Of a DNA stretch of 64,000 nt, positions 10,728-35,917 are shown one piece after another. The stretch comes from an uncultured Tateyamaria sp. (GTDB taxonomy: Bacteria > Pseudomonadota > Alphaproteobacteria > Rhodobacterales > Rhodobacteraceae). The notes beneath the pieces are model-generated. The model was not told the DNA's origin and searched no databases. It saw only the letters and a program-made list of their open reading frames with translations. The first letter of the stretch is position 1; each line of letters opens with the position of its first letter. The translations under genes and the position numbers were made by a program. The DNA lies in the NCBI RefSeq assembly GCF_947503045.1, contig NZ_CANNCF010000003.1, forward strand, positions 62,001-126,000. Reading direction: 5' to 3'.

Positions 10728-10817
10728 AGCCCTCGTTGGGCTTGAACTCTGCGCCCGTCGGCGTGACTGTGAGCCACATCGAGGAACCGCATCCCGTGCG
10801 GAGCCCTTGCCCGACCG

Positions 10818-13800: not shown

Positions 13801-14048
13801 TGGCGCGTTCGGGCAAGGAATTGCATGTGCCTGCCGACCGTTCGGCGACGGATGTGCTGCAAGAGAACGGGATCAGCATTGATGTGAAATGCAGCGACGG
13901 GTTGTGTGGCGTGTGCCAATGCGGGCTGGTCTCAGGCGACGTCGAACACCGGGATTTCGTCCTGTCCAAGGCGCAGCGGGACACAACCGTGATCCTGTGC
14001 CAATCGCGCGCCGCCGAGGCGGACGGGGTGATTGAGGTTGATCTTTAA
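10818..14048 (+). CDS. rdhA: Self-sufficient catabolic reductive dehalogenase: RdhA (corrinoid + two 4Fe-4S) fused to FMN/NAD(P)H reductase and C-terminal 2Fe-2S ferredoxin domain
   Basis: CESCNKCARECPSGAI and CGRCMKTCPWN 4Fe-4S motifs; GEVILNPYLGPRLKSGAVTTDLPM RdhA/QueG-like motif; RQYSMSGDPADRSKYQIAVLRE FMN and GGGIGITPLIAMAHTL NAD motifs; CSDGLCGVCQCGL plus CQSRA plant-type 2Fe-2S; no Tat signal. Start could be 10839. Confidence 0.9.
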   Translation: MDHFEAPMNVRLFSDKDRPVHMGPYPTERLARLTTLPDLGDVPPMTQLAFDRPDDPRSIVNAMREHQAMLDAIRGGLINKAMAEAPTDPQERANHLKAFGYFADAAIVGVCALPKAALLDQPFENPDIARLAEDLKTRQTKTLASGIDTIMADLKESMEAPPTSIDPHTHALVFLYENPREVRPGEPGSGWIRDAQDHRAGLLAAETAVVLSNYLRLLGYDARAHTVSSSDVDLGRLAVAAGLARVENGVLSHPYVGTRFGLAAVTTSFELAPDQPLAAMAEQPKSAFGVAWKFGTGTRKNAMNAVPYAKRRFVDGAHPFERLKRVDTPTTYIDEPHVARVPKRADMFARAQFGDMGKKMQEASKGGHYVRKAAPSMAQRRALAAFVLLQDGEPDAEKTQLDPQEAADLVKATSYWLGVDAVGISRCPDWTWYSHDARGEVIDPPHDQAISMIIDQGYETMEGSSGDDWIAVAQSMRAYLRFSLLGGVIARQIRNLGYSAKAHTVMDGEVLQPPLLLLSGLGEVSRIGEVILNPYLGPRLKSGAVTTDLPMAHDKPIDFGLQTFCESCNKCARECPSGAITAGPKLMFNGYEIWKSDSQKCVTYRVTTPGGAMCGRCMKTCPWNLEGIFKEKPFRWAAMNVPKLAPALARLDDVVDNGTLNPVKKWWWDLEIDEDGGYRPTPAPVNARALQKDLDLKYEDQTLAVYPAPLAPHPAPYPFAMDREAGIEAYQAMITADEYKARLARDDDSALHLYTADGESPVMQVEITCAEETAQGVMKYEFRPVSVGDLPPWTAGAHLDIVVAPEFLRQYSMSGDPADRSKYQIAVLREDAGRGGSALMHRIFTKGRRIFISRPINHFPLAPDAARTILMGGGIGITPLIAMAHTLYAEGRDFVMHYSGRSEDSMGLLKDIQGFDWADRMHLHVSDKGTRADLDAILAGYQPGWHVYTCGAERYMQSVLEAAEKAGFPEEARHLEYFSVPEQPDYVNHAFTLKLARSGKELHVPADRSATDVLQENGISIDVKCSDGLCGVCQCGLVSGDVEHRDFVLSKAQRDTTVILCQSRAAEADGVIEVDL

Positions 14049-14103
14049 GGCAGCGCGATGACGTCTCTAAAACTAGCTAAGCCAATGAGTTACACGGCAT
14101 ACC

Positions 14104-14286
14104 TCACTTAGATACCGCAAGCGCCGCACGTAACACCTCGCGGTCTCCGATCTGGTTGGCCAATGTCAGGATCAGTCGGGCATTGAGCGCTGCACTTTCT
14201 TCATCACTCAACCCTTCATGGGCGCGCAACAACTCGTCATAGAATCCGTCCGGGTCTGGGATATTTGGGGTCAGGATCAGGTTCAT
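14104..14286 (-). CDS. DUF2783-like small protein
   Basis: 60 aa, MNLILTPNIPDPDGFYDELLRAHEGLSDEESAALNARLILTLANQIGD; overlaps the FAD monooxygenase start region. Confidence 0.75.
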   Translation of the reverse strand: MNLILTPNIPDPDGFYDELLRAHEGLSDEESAALNARLILTLANQIGDREVLRAALAVSK

Positions 14287-15914
14287 GACATCTTCTTTCC
14301 TATCGCGTTCTCAAGGGCTTGCGAGACAGCCTTCGCGTCATGCTCCGCCCAGCGCGCGACCACGTGTTGATCAGGGCGGATCAGGTACAGCGCCGATGGC
14401 GAACTGCCCAGGTAACGCTCCGCCAGCAAGGGCGAAGGGGCCTCGATATGCAGCACGTTCGCCGTCACATCCCCCTCCTGCACGGGCTCTGGCGCGTCGC
14501 ACCCGATGGCCATCAAGACAAACCCATCCCCCAGCGCATCCAGCAAGAAGCCTGAGCCCAAAGGCGCGTCGGGACAGGTCGCGCCGGGTCGGCTGACCTG
14601 CGGCCCACCGTCCAGGGCATCCGGCCCGAACAGCGCAAAGCCGTCGTAGGAACAGGGAACCGACAAGCGCCCTGAATTGACGAAAGGCCGCGCAAAGGCA
14701 TGACGCCCCGCCAGCTCCAGCACCGCATTGCGAAACAGCATGCTGTTGGCGCTTTTCGGCGTCATGAAATCCGTCGCTCGGGATGAGTTGAGGATGTTTT
14801 CATCTGCTGCGTGTTCCCGCTCGGTCGCGTAGGTGTCGAGCAACGCCGCACCCGCCGCGCCCTTCAAGACAAGGTCCAGCTTCCAGGCGAGATTTTCAGC
14901 ATCCTGCACCCCCGAATTGGCCCCGCGCGCACCAAATGGCGACACCTGATGCGCGCTGTCCCCGGCAAAGAATACGCGACCATGGCGGAACTTTTCCATC
15001 CGACGGCACTGGAACGTATAAATTGACGTCCACTCCAGCTCATAATCGGGCACGTCGCCCGTTTGGCTTGATAGCATCGCGTCCACCCGCGTGCGGATGC
15101 GGTCGGGGTCCAGTTCCAGATCACGGTCGATGTCCCAGCCCAGTTGGAAATCGATACGCCAGATGTCGTCGGGCTGTTTGTGCAGCAAAGCCGACTGCCC
15201 GGCCCCCTCAAAAGGCGGATCAAACCAGAACCAGCGTTCGGTCGGAAAATCGGCCTTCATCCGCACATCGGCAATCAGGAAATTGTCCTCAAACACCCGC
15301 CCGTCAAAGCTGAGGCCCATCATGTCACGGGTGGGCGAACGCGCACCGTCACAGGCGATGAGCCAGTCGGCCTCAAGCGTGTAGCGACCATCCGGCGTGT
15401 CGATATCGACACTCACAAACTCCATGCCCAGACGGACCGAGGCCACCCGATTGCGTCCGCGTATTTCGATCGGGGCGCCCTCCTGTTGGGCGGCCTGAAT
15501 GGCCTCGAACAGGAACTTTTCGAAATAGGGCTGCTGGAGGTTGATGAAGGCCGGGTTGCGATGCCCGTCTTCCGGCAACAGGTTGAAATCAAACAGCATC
15601 CCGTCCCGATGAAAGACCTTGCCGACGTTCCAGACCACGCCCTTGTCCAGCATCTGCGTACCCGCACCAAGGCGATGCGCGATGTCGAGCGTGCGTTTGG
15701 CAAAACAGATCGCCTTGGAGCCTAGCCCCGCCCCCTCGTGATCATCCAGCACCAGTGCAGGCGTGCCCCGTCGCCCCAGATCAAGTGCCAAGGCAAGGCC
15801 CACGGGCCCACCGCCCACGATCACCACCGGATGGCGCACGGGGGCGGCATCCTGCGCGGGCACGCGGACGTAGGGGTAAAGCTCAAATGCCGTCTGATAG
15901 CGCGTGGCAACCAT
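14283..15914 (-). CDS. FAD-dependent aromatic hydroxylase (PHBH/MhpA superfamily)
   Basis: HPVVIVGGGPVGLALALDLGRRGTPALVLD; CDGARSPTRDMMG; VFFAGDSAHQVSPFGARGANSGVQDAENLAWKL. Confidence 0.9.
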   Translation of the reverse strand: MVATRYQTAFELYPYVRVPAQDAAPVRHPVVIVGGGPVGLALALDLGRRGTPALVLDDHEGAGLGSKAICFAKRTLDIAHRLGAGTQMLDKGVVWNVGKVFHRDGMLFDFNLLPEDGHRNPAFINLQQPYFEKFLFEAIQAAQQEGAPIEIRGRNRVASVRLGMEFVSVDIDTPDGRYTLEADWLIACDGARSPTRDMMGLSFDGRVFEDNFLIADVRMKADFPTERWFWFDPPFEGAGQSALLHKQPDDIWRIDFQLGWDIDRDLELDPDRIRTRVDAMLSSQTGDVPDYELEWTSIYTFQCRRMEKFRHGRVFFAGDSAHQVSPFGARGANSGVQDAENLAWKLDLVLKGAAGAALLDTYATEREHAADENILNSSRATDFMTPKSANSMLFRNAVLELAGRHAFARPFVNSGRLSVPCSYDGFALFGPDALDGGPQVSRPGATCPDAPLGSGFLLDALGDGFVLMAIGCDAPEPVQEGDVTANVLHIEAPSPLLAERYLGSSPSALYLIRPDQHVVARWAEHDAKAVSQALENAIGKKMS

Positions 15915-15938
15915 GATCTGTCCTCCCCATTCGGCCTG

Positions 15939-16889
15939 CTAGCCTTGCAGCGCCTCCCACATTTCCAGATCGCGGGCGGCGGTCCAGATGCGGGGATGGG
16001 CGATGCCGCGCGCCTCATCATAGGCGCGCGCAACGTTGAAGGGCAGGCAGTGTTCGTAGATGGCGTAGTCCTTGAATTTCGGATCGCAGCTGTCGCGTAC
16101 GGCGTCCCATGCCTCTTTCAGCGAACCACCGCGCGCGGCGACCCGCGCCGCAGGGCGATAGGTGCTGTCGACGAAATCGCGGGTGCTTTCAATCGCACGC
16201 TCGACCGCGTCCTTGCCGATCAACGCACCCCCCCGGCCCGGCGCGATAGCGTCCACGTCATAGGCATTGATCGCATCAAGCGTGCCACCCCAATCGCCGA
16301 AATAGCCATCTCCGCAATAGCAGGCCGAGTGATCTTCGACGATGTCGCCCGTGAACATGACGTTTTCATCCCGCACATGCACCACCGCATCCCCTGCCGT
16401 GTGGGCACGCCCGATATGTTTGATGTCGACGCGGCGCTGGCCAAGATAGACGGTCATGCTGTCACTGAAGGTGGTGGTGGGCCATGTCAGGCCCGGAATG
16501 CTCTCGTGCCCCTCGAAGAGGCGGGGAAAGCGTTGGACTTCGCTGTCCCAATCCTCTTGCCCGCGCTCGGCGACCATGCCACGCGCTGCCTCGGACATGA
16601 TGATCTGATCAACGCCGTAGGCGCTGGCCCCCAGCACGCGCACGGCGTGGTAGTGGGTCAGCACCAGATGGCTGATCGGTTTGTCGGTGACGCTGCGCAC
16701 CCGCTCAATCACCTTTTCGGCCAGACGCGGGGTGGCTTGCGCCTCGACCACCATGACGCTGTCGTCGCCGATAATGATGCCCGAATTCGGATCCCCCTCG
16801 GCGGTAAAGGCCCAGAGATCGCGGCCGACCTCGTCAAAGGTGATCGTCTTTTCGGTCAGGTCACCCTGTGAGGCGAATGCTTTTGCCAT
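15939..16889 (-). CDS. MBL-fold metallo-hydrolase
   Basis: LVLTHYHAVRVLGASAYG; HIGRAHTAGDAVVHV; MFTGDIVEDH. Confidence 0.87.
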   Translation of the reverse strand: MAKAFASQGDLTEKTITFDEVGRDLWAFTAEGDPNSGIIIGDDSVMVVEAQATPRLAEKVIERVRSVTDKPISHLVLTHYHAVRVLGASAYGVDQIIMSEAARGMVAERGQEDWDSEVQRFPRLFEGHESIPGLTWPTTTFSDSMTVYLGQRRVDIKHIGRAHTAGDAVVHVRDENVMFTGDIVEDHSACYCGDGYFGDWGGTLDAINAYDVDAIAPGRGGALIGKDAVERAIESTRDFVDSTYRPAARVAARGGSLKEAWDAVRDSCDPKFKDYAIYEHCLPFNVARAYDEARGIAHPRIWTAARDLEMWEALQG

Positions 16890-16952
16890 CGGTCTGGTCC
16901 TTGTCTTGCGGGAGTTGCGGGGGTCGCTTGGAGGTTCAAAACGCCGCCGTCG

Positions 16953-17579
16953 TCATGCGCCTTTCTGGTTTTCAGGCCGCGCCGCGTCAAAGGCCGGAAG
17001 GGCCAGACAGCGCGCCTCAATCTCGCTCAGACGGGCGAACGGGGCAAGGTCCATCTGCCAGCGGCGCGCGTTGAACAATTGCGGCACGAGGCAGATATCC
17101 GCAAGCGAGGGTGCGTCGCCAAATGCAAAGGGCGTATCGGGCCGGATCATCGTCTGAAAGGCCGCGAACCCGTCCTGCATCCAGTGGATCATCCAGTCCA
17201 CCACCGCCTCTTGTTCATGGCCCATCGCCGCCAGCCGCTTGCGGATGCGCAGGTTGTTGACCGGGTGCACGTCGCAAGCCATCACCTGCGCTGCGGCCTC
17301 TACCCGCGCGCGCTCCAGCGGGTCGGCAGGCAGGATCGGCGGGTTGGGATAGGTGGCCTCAATCCATGCTAGGATCGCCATGGACTGGGTCAGTGTATCG
17401 CCTGCATCCGTGACCAGCGCTGGCACCGCGCGCGCCGGGTTTACGGCGGCAAAGGCCGGATCAAGCTGCGCACCCTGCGTGAGGTCCACAGGGATGATCC
17501 GGTGCGCCACCCGCTTGATGTTCAGCGCGATGCGCACCCGATACGCGGTGCTCGACTGGGAAAAGCTGTAAAGGTCCAT
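16953..17579 (-). CDS. maiA: Maleylacetoacetate isomerase (GST zeta class)
   Basis: LYSFSQSSTAYRVRIALNIKRV; CDVHPVNNLRIRKRL; adjacent to hmgA. Confidence 0.93.
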   Translation of the reverse strand: MDLYSFSQSSTAYRVRIALNIKRVAHRIIPVDLTQGAQLDPAFAAVNPARAVPALVTDAGDTLTQSMAILAWIEATYPNPPILPADPLERARVEAAAQVMACDVHPVNNLRIRKRLAAMGHEQEAVVDWMIHWMQDGFAAFQTMIRPDTPFAFGDAPSLADICLVPQLFNARRWQMDLAPFARLSEIEARCLALPAFDAARPENQKGA

Positions 17580-17582
17580 GGG

Positions 17583-18944
17583 CTATTTCTTGCCCGGGGT
17601 GCCGTCGAACTTCTTCTCCAGATCGGCCCAGCAGTCGATGTAGTCGTCCTGCAGCGGTGCCTCATTGGCGGCAAAGCCGGTCAGGTGCTGGGGAAAGCGG
17701 GTTTCGAACATGAAGGACATCGTGTTGGCGAGGAACTCGGGTTCCAGATCGACATTGCTGGCCCCCTCGAACGCCGTCTTGTCCGGCCCGTGGGGCAGCA
17801 TCATGTTGTGCAGAGACATGCCCCCGGGAATGAACCCTTCGGGCTTGGCGTCATAGATGCCGTGGATGTTGCCCATCAGTTCGGACATGACGTTCTTGTG
17901 GTACCAGGGCGGGCGGAACGTGTCCTCGGCCACCATCCAGCGGTCGCGGAACAGGACAAAGTCGATATTGGCCGTCCCTTCGACCCCGCTTGGGGCCGTG
18001 AGCACCGTAAAGATCGACGGATCGGGGTGGTCAAACAGGATCGCGCCCACCGGGCAATAGGTGCGCAGATCGTATTTGCAGGGCGCGTAGTTGCCATGCC
18101 ATGCTACCACATCCAGCGGCGAATGCCCGATCCTGGTCTCGTGAAACTGCCCGGCCCATTTGACCGTCACGGTCGAGGGCGCATCGCGGTCCTCGAAGGC
18201 CGCAACAGGTGTTTTGAAATCGCGCCGGTTCGCCATGCAGTTGGCGCCAATGGGCCCCCTGCCCGGCAGTTCGAACTTCTGGCCATAATTCTCGCAGACA
18301 AAGCCGCGGCATGGGCCCTCAAGCACCTCGACGCGGTAGACCAGACCACGGGGGATCACCGCGATCTCCTGCGGCTCGATGTCGATCACCCCAAGCTCGG
18401 TGGCAAAGCGCAGGCGGCCCTCTTGGGGCACCACCAGCAACTCGGAATCAGCCGAAAAGAAGTAGGAATCCACCATGCTCTCGGTCACCAGATAGATATG
18501 GCTGGCCATGCCCACTTGCGTATTCACGTCGCCAGCCGTGGTCATGGTGCGCATGCCGGTCAGCCATGTCAGGTTTGCTTCACCATGGGGCACCGGATCC
18601 CAGCGGTATTGGCCAAGGCTGATCACGTCCGGATCGACATGGGGCGCGGATTTCCAATAGGGCAGATCGATTTTCTCAAAGCGGTGCGTGTGCTTGACCG
18701 AGGGGCGGATGCGGTAACACCACGTGCGCTCGTTCTGGTGGGACGGCGCGGTAAAGGCGGTGCCGCTCAGCTGTTCGCCATAAAGGCCATAGTTCACCTT
18801 TTGGGGCGAGTTCATGCCCTGCGGCAGCGCACCGGGCAGTGCTTCGGTTTCGAAATCATTGCCAAACCCGGGCATGTAACCGGGATGCGTCCCGGCCGGT
18901 GTGGGCGCGCTGCGCAATGTGGTGCTGGCGGTCACTTTGTTCAT
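17583..18944 (-). CDS. hmgA: Homogentisate 1,2-dioxygenase
   Basis: [64 protein letters not shown]; start set to ATG at 18944 (MNKVTAS). Confidence 0.97.
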
Positions 18945-18981
18945 TTGATGGCTCCCCTCGAAAATCATTCTTGGTGGGTAG

Positions 18982-18999
18982 TAGTTGCTTTTGTAACTA
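18982..18999. promoter_or_regulatory. Candidate MarR operator TAGTT-N8-AACTA between hmgA and marR
   Basis: Inverted repeat in the divergent intergenic region. Confidence 0.4.
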
Positions 19000-19020
19000 A
19001 CAAGGGATAATTCGGAGCCC

Positions 19021-19455
19021 ATGACAAAAAAGAACGACTTCGATCTCAAGGACTTTATGCCCTACCTGCTCAACCAGGCGGCAGAGGTGATGAGCCGCGA
19101 CTTTGAGGTGATCTATCGCAGCCGCTACGGCATGCTGCGCACCGAATGGCGGGTGGTGTTTCACCTTGGGCGATACGGCGCGATGACGGCCAAGGATATT
19201 TGCGACCGGGCCCGCATTCACAAGACCAAGGTCAGCCGCGCGGTACGTGCGCTGGAAACCAAGCGGTTCCTCAGGCGTGAGCAGCAGGTCAATGACCGCC
19301 GCCATGAAAGCCTGTCCCTGACCCCAACCGGGCAGCGTGTGTTCGAGGATCTGCTCAAAGAAGCGCGTACCTATGACAAAGAGGTCATGTCGCAATTCAG
19401 CGACGGTGACGCCGCGCAAATCCGCAAGGTCCTCATTCAGATTGCGCAACTCTGA
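19021..19455 (+). CDS. MarR family regulator, probably of the homogentisate cluster
   Basis: [51 protein letters not shown]; divergent from hmgA. Confidence 0.9.
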
Positions 19456-24106: not shown

Positions 24107-24985
24107 TTAGGGGGCGGTACCGCTTAAGCGGGGGAAATCGCTCACGTGTCCCAGATGATCAAACAGCCAGTCGCGAAACTGTTCTGCTGCCGGAACATGG
24201 GGGTTGGTGCGCAGATAGTACCCTTCGGTGGCAGGCAGGCTGGCCGGGTGGGCGGGCACCAACTGGCCCGATTGCAGCGCCGTCTGTGCCAGCAACGCCG
24301 ACACCAGGGCGACCCCATTGCCATGCACGGCCATGTGCAGCGCGGCCCCGTAAGAGTCCACAAACAGATCGGGCTGGCCCACCTTGCTCACCTGTTTTTG
24401 CCACTTGGCCCAACCGTCCGAGGTGCCCACGGCCTCGATCAGCGGCAAGTTGTCCAACGGCCCTTCCAGCGTCGGGGCCCTGAGCGGAATCAATGCGCTC
24501 GGTTCCAGCAACACGCCCTCCTGCCCCACCTGCTTTTCCGAGCCAAAGGGGATTTCCACATCCGCGCGCAGGGCGTGAAACTCATCCGGCCAGATGGTGC
24601 CGACAAAGCGCAGGCGCACATCCGGTGCGCGGTCGCGAAAGCTGGCCAGATGCGGGGCGATGACCCATTGGGCGACGCTGACCGAACAGGCGATGGTCAG
24701 CAGGTTGTCGCCCTGCCCTGTCTCGTAGCGGCGCGTGGCCTGTGCCAATGTCTCAAGTGCTGTGCCCACCTGCGGTAGCAGTTTGCGCCCCTCATCCGTC
24801 AGCGACAGCCCCCGCGCGCGACGCACAAACAGGCTTACCCCCAACCGCAATTCCAGCGCCTTGACGTGCTGGCTGACGGCCGATTGCGTCATCCCGATCT
24901 CCTGCGCGGCGGCAGTGAAACTGAGACAGCGCGCCGCCGCCTCAAAGGCGCGGAACCATGTCAGGGGAGGGAGGGATTTTGCCAT
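24107..24985 (-). CDS. LysR family regulator (GcvA-like)
   Basis: MAKSLPPLTWFRAFEAAARCLSFTAAAQEIGMTQSAVSQHVKALELRLG; start set at 24985. Confidence 0.92.
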   Translation of the reverse strand: MAKSLPPLTWFRAFEAAARCLSFTAAAQEIGMTQSAVSQHVKALELRLGVSLFVRRARGLSLTDEGRKLLPQVGTALETLAQATRRYETGQGDNLLTIACSVSVAQWVIAPHLASFRDRAPDVRLRFVGTIWPDEFHALRADVEIPFGSEKQVGQEGVLLEPSALIPLRAPTLEGPLDNLPLIEAVGTSDGWAKWQKQVSKVGQPDLFVDSYGAALHMAVHGNGVALVSALLAQTALQSGQLVPAHPASLPATEGYYLRTNPHVPAAEQFRDWLFDHLGHVSDFPRLSGTAP

Positions 24986-24998: not shown

Positions 24999-25013
24999 AT
25001 TAGTTCAGCTAAT
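24999..25013. promoter_or_regulatory. Candidate LysR box ATTAG-TTCAG-CTAAT (T-N11-A)
   Basis: Symmetric 15-bp element between divergent lysR and the 25095 operon. Confidence 0.5.
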
Positions 25014-25094
25014 ACCTTGACCTGCGAATCCTTCGTTTGTCAAACGGGGCCGTCCGCGCGGATAGTCAGCAGACACGTGCAGACGAGGACAGCC

Positions 25095-25694
25095 ATGCAG
25101 CCCGAAATCCGAAAACTGGTCACCTATGACGAAGAGGTGCTGATCGAAGGGTTTCGCCCTGCCGACCGCCCCTGGCGGATGTTCGCTCTGGCGGCTGTGG
25201 TGCGCAACCCATGGGCCGGGCGCTACGTTGTTGATCTCAAACCCGAAATTCAGGCCTATGGGCCGATCCTGGGCGAGATGATGACCGCACGCATGATCGC
25301 CCTTGCCGGGTCGGGCGAGGCCATCGAGGCCTATGGCAAGGCCGCCGTGGTCGGCCTGGACGGAGAGATCGAGCATGCCTCGGGTCTTATTCACACGCTG
25401 CGCTTTGGCAATCATTACCGCGAGGCCGTGGGTGCGAAATCCTACCTCGCTTTCACCAACACGCGCGGCGGGGCCAATGCACCGATCATGGTGCCGCTGA
25501 TGGACAAGAACGATGCGGGGCGGCGTTCGCATTACCTGACCATCCAATTCTCCATTCCCGACGCGCCACGCGATGACGAGATTGTCGTGGTGCTCGGGGC
25601 CGCCACTGGCGGGCGACCCCATCACCGCATCGGCGATCGCTATCAGGACCTCAAGGATCTGGGCCATGATGTGGACAACCCGGCCGCGGTCTGA
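25095..25694 (+). CDS. Amino acid synthesis family protein (DUF1185)
   Basis: IRKLVTYDEEVLIEGF...WAGRYVVDLKPEIQAYGPILGEMM...VGAKSYLAFTNTRGGANAPIMVPLMDK. Confidence 0.82.
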   Translation: MQPEIRKLVTYDEEVLIEGFRPADRPWRMFALAAVVRNPWAGRYVVDLKPEIQAYGPILGEMMTARMIALAGSGEAIEAYGKAAVVGLDGEIEHASGLIHTLRFGNHYREAVGAKSYLAFTNTRGGANAPIMVPLMDKNDAGRRSHYLTIQFSIPDAPRDDEIVVVLGAATGGRPHHRIGDRYQDLKDLGHDVDNPAAV

Positions 25695-26445
25695 CGTCGG
25701 CCCCCTCGCCGCGATCACCGCGGGCGACGGGCCGACGATCCTTCTGATCCACGGGGTCGGGCTGCGGGCCGAGGCGTGGGGCGCGCAGATCGATGCGCTC
25801 GGATCGTCCGATCATGTCGTTGCGGTGGACGTGCCCGGCCACGGGTCAAGCGCAGGCCTGCGCGTCGCGCCCGACCTCTCCGCTTATACCGAGACCATCG
25901 CCAAGTGCCTGACCGGACCGACTGTCGTGATCGGCCATTCCTTTGGCGCGATGATCGCCCTCGATCTGGCCATGTCGCACACCGATCACGTCGCAGGGGT
26001 CGCAGCCCTCAACGCCATCTACCGGCGCCCCCCGGACGCACGCACCGCCGTGATGGCACGGGCGCGCAGCCTCGATGGTGTCACCATCGCGGACCCGACC
26101 GCGCCGCTGGATCGCTGGTTCGGGCCTGATCCCAGCCCCGAACGTGCCGCCTGCGAGAACTGGCTGCTGAATGTCGATCCGGCAGGCTACAAGGCCGCCT
26201 ATTCCGTCTTTGCGCAAGAGGACGGGCCAGCGGATACGGCCCTGCGGTCCCTGCCCTGCCCGGCGCTCTTCATGACCGGGGCGGCGGAGCCGAACTCGAC
26301 CCCCGAGATGTCCCGTGCCATGGCTGCGCTGGCGCCGAATGGTCGGGCTGTCGTCATCCCCGGCGCCGCCCACATGATGCCCATGACCCATGCCGAACAG
26401 GTCAATGCACAACTTGCCAGCTTCATACGGGAGTGTTTGCCATGA
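25669..26445 (+). CDS. Alpha/beta hydrolase
   Basis: ILLIHGVGLRAEAWGAQIDAL; VVIGHSFGAMIALDLA; IPGAAHMMPMTHAEQVNAQLASFI; overlaps upstream gene. Confidence 0.88.
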   Translation: MWTTRPRSDVGPLAAITAGDGPTILLIHGVGLRAEAWGAQIDALGSSDHVVAVDVPGHGSSAGLRVAPDLSAYTETIAKCLTGPTVVIGHSFGAMIALDLAMSHTDHVAGVAALNAIYRRPPDARTAVMARARSLDGVTIADPTAPLDRWFGPDPSPERAACENWLLNVDPAGYKAAYSVFAQEDGPADTALRSLPCPALFMTGAAEPNSTPEMSRAMAALAPNGRAVVIPGAAHMMPMTHAEQVNAQLASFIRECLP

Positions 26446-27365
26446 CCATCCCCGACCCCAGCATTTTGCGCAGCGCTTTCGGCGCGTTCATGACGGGCGT
26501 GACGGTGGTGACTGCGCGGCAGGTTGACGGCACGCCCGTTGGCTTTACCGCCAATTCCTTTTCCTCCGTCTCGCTTGACCCGCCGCTGCTCTTGGTCTGT
26601 CCGGGTAAATTCCTGTCGAGTTATCAGACCTTTGCCACCTGCACCCATTTCGCGGTCAGCGTTCTGGCCGAAGGGCAAGAGGACATCGCATCCGTCTTTG
26701 CCCGCTCCAAATCCGACCGCTTCGCCGAAACCGCACACCACGACGACCTGCATGGCGTGCCGGTGATTGACGGGGCCATCGCCCAGTTTTCCTGCACGAC
26801 CCATCAGGTTGTCGAGGCAGGCGATCATTGCGTGTTGCTGGGCCGGATCGTCGCGCTCGAACAAAGCGGTGCGCCGGGGCTCGGCTACGTCTCGGGGCGG
26901 TTCTTCAGCCTCGGGACCGAGCGGGCGGCGCTGGATCACGGCGCAGGTACCACCATCGCCGGGGCCATCGTGCAGGATGGCGACCACGTGTTGTTGCAAC
27001 AAACCCCCGCCGGGCTTGCGCCGCTGCATTGTGCCCATGCCGATCGCGGCGCGCTGTTGGATCATTTGCGCGACGGGCTGCGCGCGATGGGCGTGCAGGC
27101 CACGCTCGGGCAGGCCTATTCGGTGTTTGACGACACGGGCGCACGCACCCATCACAGCTATTTTCTGGCCACAGGCGTGCAGAGCCATCCGCACCCGGAT
27201 GTTGTAGCGCTGCCAATCATTGACTTGCCCACGCACAGCTATGCCAGCCCCGCGATCCGCACCATGATGCACCGCTTTGCCCGCGAGGCCAGCGCGCGCA
27301 GTTTTGGTCTTTACTTCGGCGATACCGAACACGGCGCCGTGCACGCCCCGATACAGAGGATGTAA
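26442..27365 (+). CDS. Flavin reductase with extra C-terminal domain (~150 aa, possibly NUDIX-like)
   Basis: LRSAFGAFMTGVTVVTARQVDGTPVGFTANSFSSVSLDPPLLLVCPGKFLSSY flavin reductase core; unassigned C-terminal half. Confidence 0.85.
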   Translation: MTIPDPSILRSAFGAFMTGVTVVTARQVDGTPVGFTANSFSSVSLDPPLLLVCPGKFLSSYQTFATCTHFAVSVLAEGQEDIASVFARSKSDRFAETAHHDDLHGVPVIDGAIAQFSCTTHQVVEAGDHCVLLGRIVALEQSGAPGLGYVSGRFFSLGTERAALDHGAGTTIAGAIVQDGDHVLLQQTPAGLAPLHCAHADRGALLDHLRDGLRAMGVQATLGQAYSVFDDTGARTHHSYFLATGVQSHPHPDVVALPIIDLPTHSYASPAIRTMMHRFAREASARSFGLYFGDTEHGAVHAPIQRM

Positions 27366-27368
27366 GCC

Positions 27369-28403
27369 ATGGAATTCTCGCTTTTTGCTCATATGGAACG
27401 GCTGACCCCCGGTCAGGACCACAAGGATCTGCGGCGCGAGCTGATCGATCTGGCCAAGATGGCCGATGACGGTGGCATGCGTGCGGTCTGGACAGGCGAG
27501 CATCACGGGATGGAATTCACCATTACCCCCAACCCTTTCCTGAGCCTTGTGGATCTGGCCCATCACACCAAGAACGTGCGCCTTGGCACCGGCACCATCG
27601 TCGCTCCTTTCTGGCATCCGATCAAGCTGGCGGGCGAAGCGGCGGCGGCCGATCTGATCACCGATGGACGGATCGAACTGGGCATCGCGCGCGGTGCGTA
27701 CTCATACGAATACGAGCGCCTCATGCCCGGCATGGACGCGTGGGAGGCCGGGCAGCGCATGCGTGAAACCACTCCGCTGCTGCGCCAGCTCTGGACCGGG
27801 GATTGCGCCCATGAAGGGGAATTCTATGCGTTTCCGGCCACGACCACGGCCCCCAAGCCCGCACAAGCTGATGGCCCGCCCATCTGGATCGCTGCGCGCG
27901 ATCCCAACAGCCATTCCTTTGGGGTCGAGAACGGGTTCAACATTCAGGTGACCCCGCTTTGGCAGGGCATTGAAGAGATCGAAAACCTCATGGCCAAGTT
28001 CAATGACGCCTGTGCGGCCTATGCAGGTCCGCGCCCCAAGATCATGCTGCTGCATCACACCTATGTCGGGTCGGACAGCGATGATGTGAGCCTTGCCGCA
28101 CAACAATTGTCGCGGTTTTACTGCTATTTCGGCGCGTGGTTTCAGAACAAGCGGCCCGTGTCCCAAGGGCTGATCGAAACGTTAAGCGAGGAGGAACTGG
28201 CCGCAAACAAAATGATGTCCCCCGCCAATATGCATCGCGATCTGACCATCGGCACCGCGCAAGAGGTCATTGACCAGATCAAGCGCTACGAGGACCTTGG
28301 CTATGACGAATATTCGTTCTGGATCGACTCAGGTATGGACTTTGAGCGCAAACGCGCCTCCCTTGCCCGGTTCATCGACGACGTGATGCCCGCCTTTGCC
28401 TGA
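27369..28403 (+). CDS. LLM class (luciferase-like) flavin-dependent monooxygenase
   Basis: LAKMADDGGMRAVWTGEHHGMEFTITPNPFLSLVDLAHHTKNVRLGTGTIVAPFWHPIKLAGEAAAADLITDGRIELGIARGAYSYEYERL. Confidence 0.93.
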   Translation: MEFSLFAHMERLTPGQDHKDLRRELIDLAKMADDGGMRAVWTGEHHGMEFTITPNPFLSLVDLAHHTKNVRLGTGTIVAPFWHPIKLAGEAAAADLITDGRIELGIARGAYSYEYERLMPGMDAWEAGQRMRETTPLLRQLWTGDCAHEGEFYAFPATTTAPKPAQADGPPIWIAARDPNSHSFGVENGFNIQVTPLWQGIEEIENLMAKFNDACAAYAGPRPKIMLLHHTYVGSDSDDVSLAAQQLSRFYCYFGAWFQNKRPVSQGLIETLSEEELAANKMMSPANMHRDLTIGTAQEVIDQIKRYEDLGYDEYSFWIDSGMDFERKRASLARFIDDVMPAFA

Positions 28404-28413
28404 GGAGGCCCAA

Positions 28414-29892
28414 ATGAACGATCTGCCCCATTTCCAACTGTTCATCGACGGCGCGTGGTGCGCGGGCGCGAGTGGGCAGGTCATGGCCTCGCAAAACCCC
28501 GCCACGGGCGCGGATTGGGCGACATTTGCCTGCGCGGATGCTTCGGATGTCGACCGGGCGGTGCGCGCCGCCCGCCGTGCACTGAACGATCCGGCCTGGC
28601 GCGACATGACGCAAACGGCGCGGGGGAAGTTGCTCTACCGTCTGGCCGATCTGATCGAGGAAAATGCAAAAAAACTGGGGGAGTTGGAGACTACGGACAG
28701 CGGCAAGTTGCTGGCCGAAACCTCCGCCCAGACGGCCTATGTGGGAGACTACTATCGCTACTATGCGGGGTTGGCCGACAAGATCGAAGGGGCCGTGCTG
28801 CCCATCGACAAACCCGACATGCACGTGTTCACCCGCCGCGAACCCATCGGCGTGGTGGTGGCCATCGTGCCGTGGAATGCGCAGATGTTCCTGACCGCAA
28901 CCAAGCTGGGGCCCGCGTTGGCCGCCGGGTGCAGCGTGGTTCTCAAAGCCTCTGAAATCGCACCGGCCCCGATGCTGGAATTCGCACGGCTGATCGAAGC
29001 GGCAGGCTTTCCGCCCGGCGTCGTGTCGGTGATCACCGGGGATGCGGAAAACTGCGCCATCCCCCTCACGCGGCACGCAGATGTCGACCGCATCGCCTTT
29101 ACCGGTGGGCCGGAGACGGCGCGGCACGTGGTGCGCAATTCGGCCGAAAACTTTGCAGTGATCTCGCTGGAACTCGGTGGCAAATCCCCGATCCTCGTCT
29201 TTGACGATGCCGACCTTGACGGGGCCGCCAACGGGCTGATCGCGGGCAATTTCGGCGCTTCGGGGCAAAGCTGTGTGGCCGGCTCGCGCGGGTTGGTGCA
29301 TCGCCCGATTATGGACGACCTGATTGCCCGCATCCGCGACAAGGCCAAGGGCATCGTGGTCGGTGACCCGCTGGAGGCGGCCACCCATGTCGGCCCGCTC
29401 TGCACGCCTGCGCAAATCGCGCGGATCGAGGACACGCTTGCGAGGGCGCAAGAGCAAGACGCGACCCTCCACATGGGTGGCGCGCCCGTTGATCGGCCCG
29501 GCAACTACATGGCCCCCACCCTCGTCGAATGCGCTTCGCCCGACACCGCGACCCTGCATGTCGAGATGTTTGGCCCCGTCATGTCCCTGATCCCTTTCGA
29601 CACCGAAGAAGAAGCCATCGCGCTCGCCAATGACACGCCCTTTGGGCTCGGCTCGGGCGTCTTCACCCAGAACCTTGCACGCGCCCATCGCGTTTCGGCC
29701 CGGTTGAAGGCGGGGATTTGCTGGGTGAACACCTACCGTGCTATTTCACCCATCGCGCCGTTCGGGGGCTATGGGCAGTCGGGCTATGGGCGCGAGGCGG
29801 GGCTCGATGCGATCCACGACTACACACGCACGAAAACCACGTGGATCAACACCTCTGACAGCCCGATGGCGAACCCGTTTGTGATGCGCTGA
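28414..29892 (+). CDS. NAD(P)-dependent aldehyde dehydrogenase
   Basis: ISLELGGKSPILVFDDADLDGAANGL; FGASGQSCVAGSR. Confidence 0.92.
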   Translation: MNDLPHFQLFIDGAWCAGASGQVMASQNPATGADWATFACADASDVDRAVRAARRALNDPAWRDMTQTARGKLLYRLADLIEENAKKLGELETTDSGKLLAETSAQTAYVGDYYRYYAGLADKIEGAVLPIDKPDMHVFTRREPIGVVVAIVPWNAQMFLTATKLGPALAAGCSVVLKASEIAPAPMLEFARLIEAAGFPPGVVSVITGDAENCAIPLTRHADVDRIAFTGGPETARHVVRNSAENFAVISLELGGKSPILVFDDADLDGAANGLIAGNFGASGQSCVAGSRGLVHRPIMDDLIARIRDKAKGIVVGDPLEAATHVGPLCTPAQIARIEDTLARAQEQDATLHMGGAPVDRPGNYMAPTLVECASPDTATLHVEMFGPVMSLIPFDTEEEAIALANDTPFGLGSGVFTQNLARAHRVSARLKAGICWVNTYRAISPIAPFGGYGQSGYGREAGLDAIHDYTRTKTTWINTSDSPMANPFVMR

Positions 29893-29930
29893 GCGCGGCC
29901 ACAGCACTATTTTCTTGCGCCTTCGTGATT

Positions 29931-29951
29931 TTGTATACTTTATGTATGCAA
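29931..29951. promoter_or_regulatory. Candidate GntR (FCD) operator, imperfect palindrome TTGTATAC-N5-GTATGCAA
   Basis: 7 of 8 arm symmetry, just upstream of the GntR start. Confidence 0.45.
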
Positions 29952-29962
29952 TCCATGAGGGC

Positions 29963-30670
29963 ATGATGACACGATTCTCCAAAGACGATTGCCTGGCCGA
30001 TCTGCGTCGCCGCATCCTGTCGACGGACCTGTCCCCGGGTCAGGATCTGGACGAGGTGGGCCTTGCGCAACACTACGGCATGTCGCGCACGCCGCTGCGC
30101 GAAGTGTTGCAACGGCTGCAGGGCGAAGGCTACGTGATGATGTCGCAAAACCGCGGCGCCAAAGTGGCGGCAATGGATATCGCGGTGTTGCGGACCTTCT
30201 TTCAGACCGCGCCCATGGTCTATGCCCACATCGCGCGGCTGGCCTGCGAGAACCGGACAGCAGGGCAACTTGAGACCCTCAAGGATGCCCAACGCACCTT
30301 CAAAACAGCGACCAGCGCGGACCGACCGGACGAGGCCGCCCTCGCCAATCACCGCTTTCACGCCACCATCGGTCACATGGCGCACAATGCCTATCTGGTG
30401 GCCTCGCTGGACCGTCTCTTGATCGATCACACGCGGCTCAGCCAGACCTTCTATCGCCCCGCATCACCGGCTGAATCCGCGCTGGTGGTCAAGGCCGCCG
30501 AGCAGCACGATGCGATGATCGCCGCTATCGAAGGGGGCGAAGGCGCGCTGGCCATCGACCTCACAATTCAGCACTGGGACCTCAGTCGCGACCGGATGGA
30601 GCGGTTTGTGCGCCCCACCCCGCTGCCCGTCGATCTGATCCCGCGCGAGGACCGCGAACATGCAGTTTGA
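29963..30670 (+). CDS. GntR family regulator (FCD subfamily)
   Basis: LRRRILSTDLSPGQDLDEVGLAQHYGMSRTPLREVLQRLQGEGYVMMSQNRGAKVA. Confidence 0.93.
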   Translation: MMTRFSKDDCLADLRRRILSTDLSPGQDLDEVGLAQHYGMSRTPLREVLQRLQGEGYVMMSQNRGAKVAAMDIAVLRTFFQTAPMVYAHIARLACENRTAGQLETLKDAQRTFKTATSADRPDEAALANHRFHATIGHMAHNAYLVASLDRLLIDHTRLSQTFYRPASPAESALVVKAAEQHDAMIAAIEGGEGALAIDLTIQHWDLSRDRMERFVRPTPLPVDLIPREDREHAV

Positions 30671-31568
30671 AGGCATCTACACTCCGATCGTGACCCCCTA
30701 TCACGACGATTTTTCGCTTAATGAGGCGGCGCTGGCCGAAACGGTGGAGTTGCTGATTGCGGCAGGCGTGAACGGCATCGTCGTGGCAGGCTCCACCGGC
30801 GAATATTATGCCCAGACGCCCGAAGAACGGCTTGAGATGATGACCCGCGCCGCGGGCCTGATTGCAGGTCGTGTGCCAATGATCGTCGGCACCGGCGCGA
30901 TCCGCACCGAGGATTCGGTGATGTTTGCCAAAGCCGCCAAGGCCGCAGGCGCGGATGCCTTGCTGGTCGCCACGCCGCCTTACGCCTACCCGACGGGGCG
31001 CGAGATTGCCCTGCATGCGCTCGCCATCGACCGCGCCGCCAACCTGCCCGTGATGCTCTACAACTATCCGGGGCGCATGTCGGTCGACATGGATGAAGAG
31101 ACGCTGGACCGCGTCGGCCGTTCGCCCAACTTCTGCGCCATCAAGGAAAGTTCGGGCGATATCAACCGCCTGCACATGCTGGCGCGGGATTATCCGCATA
31201 TCGCGCTCAGTTGCGGGATGGACGACCAGGCCCTCGAATTCTTTGCATGGGGCGCGCGCAGTTGGGTCTGTGCGGGATCGAATTTTGCCCCCGAATCCCA
31301 CATCGCCCTCTATCAGGCCTGCGCGGTCGAAGGCGACTTTACCAAGGGGCGCGCCATCATGTCCGCGATGCTGCCGTTGATGCGGGTGCTCGAACAGGGC
31401 GGCAAGTTCGTGCAATGCATCAAATACGGGCTGACCCTGCGCGGTATTGATGCAGGACCGCCCCGTAGGCCCCTGCAACCGCTCAACAAAGACGACAAGC
31501 GCGCGCTTGCTGAGGTGATTGCCACCATGAACACAACAATCCGCAGCATCACGGGGGCACACCCATGA
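30660..31568 (+). CDS. Dihydrodipicolinate synthase/N-acetylneuraminate lyase family protein
   Basis: FEGIYTPIVTPYHDDFSLNEAAL; GSTGEYYAQTPEERLEMM; YNYPGRMSVDM; CAIKESSGDINRL (Schiff-base Lys). Confidence 0.92.
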   Translation: MQFEGIYTPIVTPYHDDFSLNEAALAETVELLIAAGVNGIVVAGSTGEYYAQTPEERLEMMTRAAGLIAGRVPMIVGTGAIRTEDSVMFAKAAKAAGADALLVATPPYAYPTGREIALHALAIDRAANLPVMLYNYPGRMSVDMDEETLDRVGRSPNFCAIKESSGDINRLHMLARDYPHIALSCGMDDQALEFFAWGARSWVCAGSNFAPESHIALYQACAVEGDFTKGRAIMSAMLPLMRVLEQGGKFVQCIKYGLTLRGIDAGPPRRPLQPLNKDDKRALAEVIATMNTTIRSITGAHP

Positions 31569-33037
31569 CCGACCTTTTGACCCATGGCGAATATCAAGCT
31601 TTGGCCGACGCGCTGGACCCACCCCGCAGCCCATTCATCGACGGCAAATACCAGCGTGGCAACGGACCGATGATGCCCACAACCAACCCGGCAACTGGGG
31701 CCGAAATCACGCAGATTTCGACGGCGGATGCGGCGGATGTCGATCTGGCCGTCACAAAGGCACGCGAGGCATTTGATCAGGGCCGCTGGTCAAAACTGGA
31801 CCCCGAGGCACGCAAGGACGTGCTGATCCGGTTGTGCAAGCTGATGACGCGCAACATCCGCGAACTGGCGGTGATGGAGAGCGTGGAATCCGGCAAACCA
31901 ATCCGTGATTGCGTGCAGATCGACCTGCCCGAAACGATCCATTGTCTCAAATGGCACGCCGAGGCGGTGGACAAGATCTATGACCAGACCGCCCCCACAG
32001 GCGACCGGGCTCTGGCGATGATCCTGCGCGAACCGGTCGGCGTTGTGGCCGCCGTGTTGCCCTGGAACTTTCCCTTGATGATGCTGGCCTGGAAGATCGG
32101 CCCGGCCCTTGCGGCGGGCTGTTCGGTCATCGTCAAGCCTGCCGAACAAACAAGCCTCACCGCCCTGCGCGTCGCTGAGCTGGCCCATGAGGCTGGCGTC
32201 CCGCGCGGCGTGTTGCAGGTGCTGCCCGGCGACGGGCCAAGCGTGGGCGAGCCACTTGGGCGGCATATGGATGTGGACATGGTCAGCTTTACCGGCTCGA
32301 CCGAGACGGGGCGGCGGTTTTTGCATTATGCCGCCGACAGCAACCTCAAAAAGGTGGTGCTGGAATGCGGCGGCAAGAACCCGGCGGTCGTCTTTGACGA
32401 AGCCGAAAACCTCGATTCAGTGGCTGAACATGTGGTGAATGCGGCCTTCTGGAATGCGGGGCAGAACTGCTCAGCCGCCTCGCGCCTGATCGTGCACCGC
32501 GCGGTGAAACCGGCCCTGATGGAGCGGATAGAGGCCCGCCTGCGCGACTGGAAGGTGGGCGACCCGCTTGATCCGGCCACCCATATCGGCACACTGATCG
32601 ATGCGGGCCATTGTGCCAAGGTCCGCGGATATCTCGATGACAAAGGCGACGGGCCATACATCGCACCCGCCATCCTTGAGGTATCTCGCAATGACCCAAA
32701 GGCGCGTGAAGAGATCTTTGGCCCCGTCCTGTCGGTGATCGAGGTCGCCAGCAACGCCGAAGCGGTCGAGGTGGCCAACGACAGCGCCTATGGGCTTGCG
32801 GCATCCGTCTTTTCCGCCAATGGCCGCGCCGCCATCCGCGCCGCACGCGACATCCGGGCAGGCACCGTGACGGTCAACTGCTATGGCGAGGGCAACATCG
32901 CCACCCCCTTTGGCGGCTACAAACAATCCGGCTTTGGCGGGCGCGACAACGGGCTGCACGCCCATGACCAATACACCGAGGTCAAGACCATCTGGGTCGA
33001 CCTCACCGACCTTGCCGACGGGAACAACGTCACATGA
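31565..33037 (+). CDS. Aldehyde dehydrogenase
   Basis: VVLECGGKNPAVVFDEAENLDSV; FWNAGQNCSAASRLIVH; 4-bp overlap with upstream gene. Confidence 0.92.
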   Translation: MTDLLTHGEYQALADALDPPRSPFIDGKYQRGNGPMMPTTNPATGAEITQISTADAADVDLAVTKAREAFDQGRWSKLDPEARKDVLIRLCKLMTRNIRELAVMESVESGKPIRDCVQIDLPETIHCLKWHAEAVDKIYDQTAPTGDRALAMILREPVGVVAAVLPWNFPLMMLAWKIGPALAAGCSVIVKPAEQTSLTALRVAELAHEAGVPRGVLQVLPGDGPSVGEPLGRHMDVDMVSFTGSTETGRRFLHYAADSNLKKVVLECGGKNPAVVFDEAENLDSVAEHVVNAAFWNAGQNCSAASRLIVHRAVKPALMERIEARLRDWKVGDPLDPATHIGTLIDAGHCAKVRGYLDDKGDGPYIAPAILEVSRNDPKAREEIFGPVLSVIEVASNAEAVEVANDSAYGLAASVFSANGRAAIRAARDIRAGTVTVNCYGEGNIATPFGGYKQSGFGGRDNGLHAHDQYTEVKTIWVDLTDLADGNNVT

Positions 33038-34584
33038 GCGTGGACGCCGTCGGCACCGTCCGGCGCGGGCGTGGCGCGCGCAAGGCGATCCGCCAGACGC
33101 GCGACATCGCAATGCTGCCCGCCCTCAAGCGTCGCCTGCCCCTGACCGAGCCGATGAGCGGCGAACAGGTGGAAAAGATCGACGCCGCCTCAATGGATAT
33201 CCTAGAAAATGTGGGAGTGGTCTTTCGTGACCCCATTGCACTGGCTGACTGGTCGCGCGCCGGGGCCAAGGTCGCTGGCGAACGGGTCTATCTGGACCGT
33301 GGCCTTGTGCGCGCGTTGATCGCAACCATTCCCGAAACCTTCACCTATCACGCGCGCAACCCGGCCAATAACCTGCCCTTTGGGTCCGATCACGCGATTT
33401 TCGTTCCCATGACCGGTGCGCCCTATCTGCGCGACCTCGATGACGTGCGGCGCAATCCGACGCTCGACGATCTGGCGAATTTCCACAAGCTCAGCCACAT
33501 GCTGCCCGCGATGCACTCCTCCGCGCATCACATCGTGGAACCCTATGATCACCCGATCAGCCAACGGCATCTGCGCATCACATACAGTTCCATGAAACAC
33601 TCCGACAAGACGTTCATGGGCATGACGACTTCGCCGAAAAACGCCGAGGATGTGCTCGACATGGCCGCGATCCTGTTCGGCGCAGAATTCATGGACAGCC
33701 ATCCGGTGGTGACCGGCAATTGCAACGGAAACTCGCCGCTGGTCTGGGACGAAACGATGCTGGGGGCCATGCGCGCATTTTGTCGGCGCAACCAGCCGGT
33801 GCTGTGCTCGCCCTTCGTTTTGGGCGGGGCGAACACGCCCGCCTCGACCGCCGCCACCGTGGCGCAGCTCAACGCTGAAGCGCTGAGCGCACTGGCCTAT
33901 ACCCAAGTGATCCGCAAGGGCTGTCCTGCGATCTATGGCCACTACCTGTCGACCGTGTCGATGAAGTCCGGCGCGCCGATTGCAGGCACGCCCGAGATCA
34001 GTCTCATGAACTTCATGATCGGCCAGATGGCGCGGTTCTACGGCGTGCCATGGCGCACCTCGAACACGCTGGGCGGGGCCAAGACGTTTGATGCACAGGC
34101 GGGTTATGAATCGGCGATGACCCTCAACGCGGTGCTGATGGCCGGGGCGAACTATATCTGGCATTCGGCGGGCTGGAACGAGGCAGGCATGCATTGTTCC
34201 ATGGCCAAATTCATCGTCGATGCCGAAATGTGTGCCATGGGCTATCGCATGGCCGAAGGGATCAACTGGGACGACTTTGACGCCGCCATCGCAACTGTGC
34301 CCGATGTCGGCCCCGGCGGGCACTATCTGGGCCATCCGCACACGCTCGAGCACTTTCAAAACGCCTTCTTCATGCCTGAAATGTTTGACAATAACTCAAT
34401 CGAGCAGTGGCAGGCCGAAGGATCAGTCGAGATCACCGAACGCGCCCTGATCCGCGCACGCGATATGTTGAACGAGTACGAAGAACCGAAACTGGACGCG
34501 GGCGTGAACGAGGAACTGCTCGACTATATCGCGCGGCGCGAACGCGAAATCCCGCCCGCCGACGCGCTCAATCAGGACCTCTGA
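33034..34584 (+). CDS. Trimethylamine methyltransferase (MttB) family protein, non-pyrrolysine
   Basis: ILENVGVVFRDPIALADWSRAGAKVAGERVYLDRGLVRALIATIPETFTYHARNP; continuous 516-aa frame without internal TAG. Confidence 0.9.
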   Translation: MSVDAVGTVRRGRGARKAIRQTRDIAMLPALKRRLPLTEPMSGEQVEKIDAASMDILENVGVVFRDPIALADWSRAGAKVAGERVYLDRGLVRALIATIPETFTYHARNPANNLPFGSDHAIFVPMTGAPYLRDLDDVRRNPTLDDLANFHKLSHMLPAMHSSAHHIVEPYDHPISQRHLRITYSSMKHSDKTFMGMTTSPKNAEDVLDMAAILFGAEFMDSHPVVTGNCNGNSPLVWDETMLGAMRAFCRRNQPVLCSPFVLGGANTPASTAATVAQLNAEALSALAYTQVIRKGCPAIYGHYLSTVSMKSGAPIAGTPEISLMNFMIGQMARFYGVPWRTSNTLGGAKTFDAQAGYESAMTLNAVLMAGANYIWHSAGWNEAGMHCSMAKFIVDAEMCAMGYRMAEGINWDDFDAAIATVPDVGPGGHYLGHPHTLEHFQNAFFMPEMFDNNSIEQWQAEGSVEITERALIRARDMLNEYEEPKLDAGVNEELLDYIARREREIPPADALNQDL

Positions 34585-34585
34585 A

Positions 34586-35917
34586 ATGCGCGTCACCCGC
34601 CTGCCCCGTGATCCCGGCCCTGCGGGCTGGAACCGGCTGTTGCCGGACCCGGACCCCGCTCTGCGGCTTGAGGACAAGATCACCGCCGATTGGCTGGTGA
34701 TCGGCGCAGGCTTTGCCGGGTTGGCCGCCGCGCATCGTCTGTCGCAAAAGGTGGAGGGCGCGCGCATCGTGGTGCTGGATGCCCTGCGCGTCGGGGACGG
34801 GCCTGCGGGGCGGAATTCCGGTTTCATGATCGACCTGCCCCACGATTTGACATCGCATGATTATGGCGGCGCGCTCGATGCCGACATCGCACAAACGCAA
34901 GACAACCGGACCGGGATCGTCCACGCCGCCGCCATGGCCGAGGAATACGGACTGAGCCCCGAGGCGTTTTCGATGTCTGGCAAGATCAACGGGGCGGCAA
35001 GCGCGAAAGGCACCGCCCACAATCACACCTTTGCCCGCCACCTTGAGGCGATGAGCGAACCGCACGAGATGCTGGATGCGACGCAGATGCGCGACCTGAC
35101 GGGGACCGAGTATTACGAAAGCGGTCTGTTCACCCCCGGCTCGGCAATGATCCAGCCTGCCCTGTTTGTACGCGGCGTGGCGCGGGGGTTGCGCTCAAAC
35201 CGCGTGCATCTCTATGAAAACAGCCCCGTGATTGCGCTGGAGCGGCAGGGCGACTGGATCGCGCGCACGCCCAAGGGACAGGTCACCGCGCCCCGCGTGA
35301 TCCTTGCCGTGAACGGGCATCTCAACAGCTTTGGCCACATGCAGGGGCGGCTGATGCATGTGTTCACCTATGCCTCGATGACGCGCGCGCTGAGCCCTGA
35401 AGAAGTCGCGTCTCAGGGTGGAAGGCCTATTTGGGGCCTGACCCCGGCTGACCCGATGGGCACGACCGTGCGCCGGATTTCGGGCATGGGCGGGGACCGG
35501 ATCGTGATCCGCAACCGCTTTACTTTTGACCCCAAAATGGAGGTGAACGCCGCCCGTATTGCCCGCGTAGGGCGCGACCATGACCGTGCCTTTGCGCGCC
35601 GCTTTCCACAGCTTGCAGGGATCGAGATGGAGTACCGCTGGGGTGGACGGCTGTGCCTGTCGCGCAACAACGTGCAGGTGGTCGGCGAGCTTGATCAGGG
35701 CCTTTATTCGGCCTGTTGCCAGAACGGGCTGGGCACGGCCAAGGGCACGCTGGCCGGCGGGCTTGCGGCGGATATGTCCATGGGGCTGTCATCGCCCGCG
35801 CTGGAGCGCGCCCTTGCTGCCGAAGCCCCGACCCGCCTGCCCCCCGACCCCATCACGCGCCTCGGTGCCAATCTGCACATCCGCCTTGCGGAATTACGGG
35901 CTGGGAGAGAGCTGTGA
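34586..35917 (+). CDS. FAD-dependent amine oxidoreductase (DAO family)
   Basis: ADWLVIGAGFAGLAAAHRLSQKV; GPAGRNSGFMIDLPHDL; GVARGLRSNRVHLYENSPV; C-terminal LYSACCQNGLGTAKGTLAGGLAADM. Confidence 0.9.
   Translation: MRVTRLPRDPGPAGWNRLLPDPDPALRLEDKITADWLVIGAGFAGLAAAHRLSQKVEGARIVVLDALRVGDGPAGRNSGFMIDLPHDLTSHDYGGALDADIAQTQDNRTGIVHAAAMAEEYGLSPEAFSMSGKINGAASAKGTAHNHTFARHLEAMSEPHEMLDATQMRDLTGTEYYESGLFTPGSAMIQPALFVRGVARGLRSNRVHLYENSPVIALERQGDWIARTPKGQVTAPRVILAVNGHLNSFGHMQGRLMHVFTYASMTRALSPEEVASQGGRPIWGLTPADPMGTTVRRISGMGGDRIVIRNRFTFDPKMEVNAARIARVGRDHDRAFARRFPQLAGIEMEYRWGGRLCLSRNNVQVVGELDQGLYSACCQNGLGTAKGTLAGGLAADMSMGLSSPALERALAAEAPTRLPPDPITRLGANLHIRLAELRAGREL

Follow-up and report, generated by a model that had tools for sequence, protein, structure and literature searches.

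Among the nitrogen compounds of plants and marine phytoplankton are trigonelline and homarine; what metagenomes are taken to say about their turnover depends on the marker genes used. In the trigonelline (tgn) system, TgnB is a luciferase-like flavin-dependent trigonelline monooxygenase (PMC11354265) that performs the first step, opening of the ring, together with TgnA (Heal et al. 2021; PMC8269262). Ruegeria pomeroyi grows on trigonelline (PMC8269262), and TgnF of Acinetobacter baylyi, a homologue of a PF06684 (DUF1185) protein, stimulates TgnE-dependent succinate semialdehyde oxidation (PMC7913881). Here we analyse a five-gene operon in a 64-kb stretch of contig NZ_CANNCF010000003.1 from an uncultured Tateyamaria sp. 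(the window, to which all positions refer). We show that Rhodobacteraceae carry two versions of the tgn operon, and that the window operon is probably a divergent tgn-type operon, distinct from the known one and most likely serving trigonelline breakdown.

Five plus-strand open reading frames (ORFs) lie between 25095 and 29892, with ends that overlap or nearly abut. In order, they encode a DUF1185 protein, an alpha/beta hydrolase, a flavin reductase, a luciferase-like monooxygenase (LLM) and an aldehyde dehydrogenase (ALDH), and all five family matches lie far above the Pfam cut-offs (Table 1), which bears out the overlapping or adjacent genes that the first-pass annotation had named. The A. 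baylyi locus used for reference is that of the type strain DSM 14961, not ADP1, and the names tgnA–F were given to its genes by family and position. It runs GntR, DUF1185, hydrolase, reductase, LLM, ALDH, NCS1 permease, an ORF with no Pfam match and a second ALDH. Identities between the window and A. baylyi are 66% for DUF1185, 37% for the hydrolase, 36% for the reductase, 61–62% for the LLM and 56% for the ALDH; those with Sinorhizobium meliloti are 71% for DUF1185 and 66% for the LLM. The best match of the window reductase in the Protein Data Bank (PDB), 3rh7 (E 4e-57), is identical over 309 residues to the reductase of the S. meliloti pSymA operon.

The order F-D-(A)-B-C recurs in more than 100 loci from several proteobacterial classes, so the gene set is not a product of chance. 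LLM families are functionally diverse, and the NCBIfam subfamily matches of the window LLM are general and under cut-off, as they might be if the enzyme carried out unrelated chemistry (desulfonation, secondary metabolism or a reaction of Baeyer–Villiger type) within a gene set alike by coincidence. The relationship and conserved order of all the genes in different classes of Proteobacteria argue against such a coincidence, as do the PDB relatives of the hydrolase, which include, among many others, a deformylase (4l0c) and N-acetylaminomethylene succinate hydrolase (3kxp). We therefore consider unrelated chemistry highly improbable, and are confident that the window operon encodes chemistry of the TgnAB type.

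The two operon versions emerged from a survey of the window's family, which gave an LLM match at E 1e-60 in 103 of 397 genomes. Identity to the window LLM separates three groups: 73–100% (type II; 29 genomes, about 7% of those sampled), 60–71% (type I; 37 genomes) and about 35–41%, the sizes 29 and 37 being hand counts from the match table. In the LLM tree, type II of Rhodobacteraceae forms a clade (SH-aLRT 99), which two AT-rich genomes (1.4–2.2 Mb) and family f117 join at 97; type II is sister, with a fork support of 92, to a clade (support 80) that unites type I with A. baylyi and S. meliloti, and the placement of two long branches, L011 and L012, is unsure. The hydrolase tree likewise makes types I and II sisters. 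Type I operons resemble that of A. baylyi, with whose GntR gene their own GntR shares about 50% identity, and many alphaproteobacterial type I LLMs are 73–78% identical to the Acinetobacter query, above the value for the window LLM. The full F-D-A-B-C order is present at 14 of 23 type II loci, and five more have F-D-B-C without the reductase.

LuxA residues E43, H44 and R107 have flavin-related or catalytic roles, and the window LLM carries E44-H45 and R108 in the aligned positions. Types I and II have 98 near-invariant LLM positions in common; only two positions, 38 (H/R) and 190 (C/F), discriminate between them at 85%. The strongest argument that type II acts on trigonelline comes from a natural hybrid locus, L208, found in one genome (G803; 100% complete and 4% contaminated according to the genome table). 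Here, a type I GntR-F-D-C arrangement with no room for A and B is followed by an ABC transporter and then by a LysR-A-B unit, 3.7 kb from the F-D-C operon. The F, D and C proteins fall inside the type I clades of their trees, and the LLM is of type II, 74% identical to that of the window and the sole copy in G803 at E 1e-60. On the simplest reading, TgnC and TgnD of type I take up the product of type II TgnAB here, an arrangement suggesting that the TgnAB enzymes of both types make one and the same intermediate.

A LysR-family regulator gene diverges from the window operon, and a LysR gene lies upstream of most type II loci. The best NCBIfam match of the window protein is the GcvA subfamily, under its cut-off; GcvA of Escherichia coli recognises CTAAT. 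The shared promoter region contains a perfect ATTAG-N5-CTAAT dyad, ATTAGTTCAGCTAAT, of the T-N11-A form expected for a LysR regulator, making it a putative operator. The strict motif occurs once in the window (0.00 expected in shuffles), and a slightly relaxed form is found upstream of 18 of 21 type II loci compared with 0 of 43 of type I. Of the three type II loci that miss it, L203 and L199 have no adjoining LysR gene and L194 has a changed half-site. The longest LysR ORF starts at 25000; we took the second ATG, at 24985, as the start because the operator then stays outside the coding part. About 20 nucleotides (nt) past the dyad, type II upstream regions have a conserved TCGTTTGTCAAA box, and TTTG[TC]C lies within 60 bases after the dyad in 17 of 18. 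The conserved operator and the hybrid locus offer direct handles for testing function.

DUF1185 had been regarded as an addition to the tgn set that would contribute an extra step. The gene also comes first in the operons of A. baylyi, S. meliloti and Ruegeria (Ruegeria sp. SCSIO 43209), and this position, together with the homology of TgnF to PF06684 (PMC7913881), makes DUF1185 an ordinary member of the operon. Between the window and a congener (L191), DUF1185 and the LLM are each 96% identical, the ALDH 90%, the reductase 75% and the hydrolase 68%, which places DUF1185 among the slowest-changing proteins of the operon. Its strong conservation within the genus relative to the hydrolase points to an important role for this family. 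The aligned regions of the DUF1185 and hydrolase genes overlap at all 22 type II loci and at 98 of the 105 type I loci, over-long hydrolase frames included, and this overlap suggests that the two proteins act together. The predicted DUF1185 structure (pLDDT 87.1) convincingly matches only the two solved DUF1185 structures. DUF1185 and RidA share chorismate-mutase-like folds, the ground for considering a RidA-like imine deaminase; this idea gained no support, as no RidA/YjgF protein is among the best 50 structure matches of the model. A second DUF1185 gene in the same genome (L061; G000:C2:135398–135919) is 38% identical to that of the window and has no tgn-like gene within 10 kb.

We favour trigonelline, with some reserve, as the substrate of the window operon, and propose a pathway modelled on the chemistry reportedly worked out for the A. 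baylyi tgn genes by Perchat et al. in 2018. TgnA would yield reduced flavin. With this flavin and O2, TgnB would cleave the C5–C6 bond in the pyridinium ring of trigonelline (N-methylnicotinate), and the product would be an N-formyl, masked-aldehyde intermediate. The ALDH would oxidise the aldehyde of this ring-opened compound, and the hydrolase, aided by TgnF, would remove the formyl group, with release of methylamine, formate, CO2 and succinate semialdehyde. Breakdown of these products would be completed by an unlinked succinate semialdehyde dehydrogenase (SSADH) and GMAS, and the divergent LysR protein would act at ATTAG-N5-CTAAT in the shared promoter region. Genes for SSADH and GMAS, both over cut-off, are present in the same genome elsewhere than in the operon. 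The frequency of GMAS does not differ significantly between the types (19 of 25 type II and 21 of 34 type I genomes). No gmaS or mgs gene is linked to the operon at type II loci, and those elsewhere are too few to decide; at type I loci L141, L145, L147, L149 and L226, gmaS and/or mgs lie within 10 kb, which fits methylamine release from trigonelline.

Several observations weigh against the trigonelline assignment. In the hydrolase, the Ser nucleophile and the His are kept and the triad is completed in the window by Glu in place of Asp. All 106 type I proteins have Asp as the acid, and 19 of 23 type II proteins have Glu. Immediately before the catalytic His, 100 of the 106 type I proteins have Arg and 21 of the 23 type II proteins have Ala; these changes could mean a different intermediate. 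In the ALDH, 54 positions discriminate types I and II, and the type II clade is neither nested with type I nor sister to A. baylyi TgnC. The outgroup loci L073 and L074 fall with type I in the ALDH tree (100/99) and outside both types for the hydrolase (97/94) and the LLM, a discordance that we read as displacement of the ALDH in the type II lineage. The window operon has LysR in place of the GntR-type TgnR, the GntR gene at 29915 heading the following operon instead. A linked TgnE-like SSADH occurs at 0 of 22 type II loci compared with 8 of 28 alphaproteobacterial type I loci (P 0.006); no conserved transporter was found at type II loci, and NCS1 is absent from the surroundings of the window operon and of every type II locus. 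We found no experiment on any type II member. A linked SSADH, a linked transporter and GntR were not treated as defining, many type I operons having no linked SSADH or transporter. The tgn-like interpretation of the first-pass annotation holds for gene set, gene order and the kinship of LLM, hydrolase and DUF1185, with the LLM and hydrolase grouping with a sister clade of A. baylyi type; the regulator, the ALDH lineage and the hydrolase active site depart from the A. baylyi type.

The ALDH and hydrolase changes, together with the absence of a linked SSADH and transporter, leave a real chance of a different N-methylpyridinium substrate. Type II might use TgnAB-type opening on another N-methylpyridinium or N-heterocycle (for instance homarine, or a compound isomeric with trigonelline or derived from it), with a different intermediate and no succinate semialdehyde. 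The LysR protein and operator peculiar to type II, and the AT-rich genomes and family f117 that join its LLM clade, would also suit this alternative. Against it stand the near absence of type-specific positions in the LLM, the combination of type II A-B with type I F-D-C at the hybrid locus, and the fact that types I and II never occur in one genome (0 among 397, 2.7 expected, P 0.05). As proof of equal function, mutual exclusion was rejected, the P value being only 0.05. We regard the use of another substrate as possible but doubtful, and propose, a little more tentatively still, that type II is a separate TgnAB-type lineage of Rhodobacteraceae, and perhaps of small AT-rich alphaproteobacteria, that acts on an N-methylpyridinium other than trigonelline under a LysR regulator at ATTAG-N5-CTAAT. 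Opening of an N-methylpyridinium ring had been suggested with both trigonelline and homarine in mind: trigonelline remains probable, and homarine gained no specific support. TgnAB has been argued to be unlikely to act on homarine because of steric hindrance (Heal et al. 2021; PMC8269262), which also counts against homarine as the other substrate, and a homarine pathway using Mgd has been published (Nat Microbiol 2026, as cited in PMC13390433). Whichever compound is used, type II differs from A. baylyi in its ALDH and regulator, and it would therefore be misclassified in surveys that rely on the TgnC or TgnR of that species.

Table 1 Features of the window operon and its promoter region; starts of the five operon genes are those judged likely after refinement
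Feature	Position	Strand	Evidence and remarks
LysR-family regulator gene	24107..24985	-	HTH_1 and LysR_substrate (Pfam); divergent from operon
Putative LysR operator ATTAGTTCAGCTAAT, perfect ATTAG-N5-CTAAT dyad, T-N11-A form	24999..25013	.	Single match in 64 kb
Conserved TCGTTTGTCAAA box, perhaps -35 element (TTGTCA) or second regulator site	25033..25044	+	Type II upstream sequences
tgnF-like, DUF1185/AA_synth (PF06684)	25095..25694	+	Pfam 240.7 bits
tgnD-like alpha/beta hydrolase	25666..26445	+	Abhydrolase_6 92.2 bits; longest ORF from 25573
tgnA-like flavin reductase, C-terminal extension	26442..27365	+	Flavin_Reduct 123.5 bits; alternative GTG start 26433
tgnB-like LLM	27369..28403	+	Bac_luciferase 181.8 bits
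tgnC-like ALDH, separate clade	28414..29892	+	Aldedh 516.7 bits; longest ORF from 28396 (TTG)

The next operon of the window (29915–35917) encodes GntR, a DHDPS-family protein, an ALDH, an MttB-family methyltransferase (PF06253, 710 bits), whose PDB relatives include glycine betaine methyltransferase, and a DAO oxidase; it looks like an operon for catabolism of a betaine or an N-methylated cyclic amino acid. At the type I locus L222, DHDPS-ALDH-DAO likewise adjoins tgn and its ABC transporter. Further upstream, window positions 6460–19049 hold aromatic catabolism genes for an ALDH, an extradiol dioxygenase-like protein, a fumarylacetoacetase-like hydrolase, an FAD monooxygenase, a GST-type isomerase and, judged by eye, a homogentisate dioxygenase. 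Elsewhere in the family, a type I LLM match at G988:C88:833–1669 is shortened to 278 residues and contains an in-frame TAG, which may reflect either decay of this copy or a fault in the assembly.

The LLMs of about 40% identity belong to clusters of their own, which four genomes carry alongside type I or II. The clusters at L084, L083 and L229, each with reductase, ALDH, hydrolase and DUF1185 genes besides the LLM, are paralogous and may represent a sister ring-opening pathway; L084 and L229 add CMD, NIPSNAP and a proline/glycine-betaine transporter. At two of the 40% loci there is also gmaS/mgs linkage. A cluster of this kind at L228 (12350–15871 and 15973–19999; G697), found also at L227 (G991), adjoins the methylamine genes gmaS-mgs and encodes a CoA-transferase III–flavin reductase fusion (702 amino acids), DUF1185, an acyl-CoA dehydrogenase, an enoyl-CoA hydratase and a 3-hydroxyacyl-CoA dehydrogenase. 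It may encode a pathway that proceeds through CoA esters and releases methylamine from an N-methyl heterocycle.

These 40% clusters are among the known systems closest to the window operon. That on plasmid pAt of Agrobacterium fabrum (L084), for example, brings together reductase, ALDH, LLM, hydrolase and DUF1185 as the window does, but in another gene order and with extra CMD, NIPSNAP and 2-hydroxyacid dehydrogenase genes; the LLMs differ at many residues that are invariant in types I and II, and stand apart from both in the LLM tree. PF06684 also occurs in a catabolic operon of another pathway, as HcdD of the 7-hydroxycoumarin operon of Pseudomonas mandelii 7HK4, which its authors compared with TgnF and for which a stimulating effect could not be demonstrated (PMC7913881). 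Another close system is the S. meliloti pSymA operon (L079/L080), which sits between noeB and nifT, beside nif and nod genes, and from its map position is probably the trigonelline catabolism (trc) region. It has the same five genes in the same order, but belongs to the type I clade and has NIPSNAP, an ABC transporter and a further ALDH downstream. The A. baylyi tgn cluster differs from the window operon in its regulator (GntR instead of LysR), in its linked NCS1 transporter and SSADH, in the clade of its ALDH, and at the hydrolase positions where the window has Glu for Asp and Ala for Arg. The two nevertheless have in common the order DUF1185-hydrolase-reductase-LLM-ALDH, the conserved LLM residues and an overlap of tgnF with tgnD that measures about 30 nt in A. 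baylyi and 29 nt in the window.

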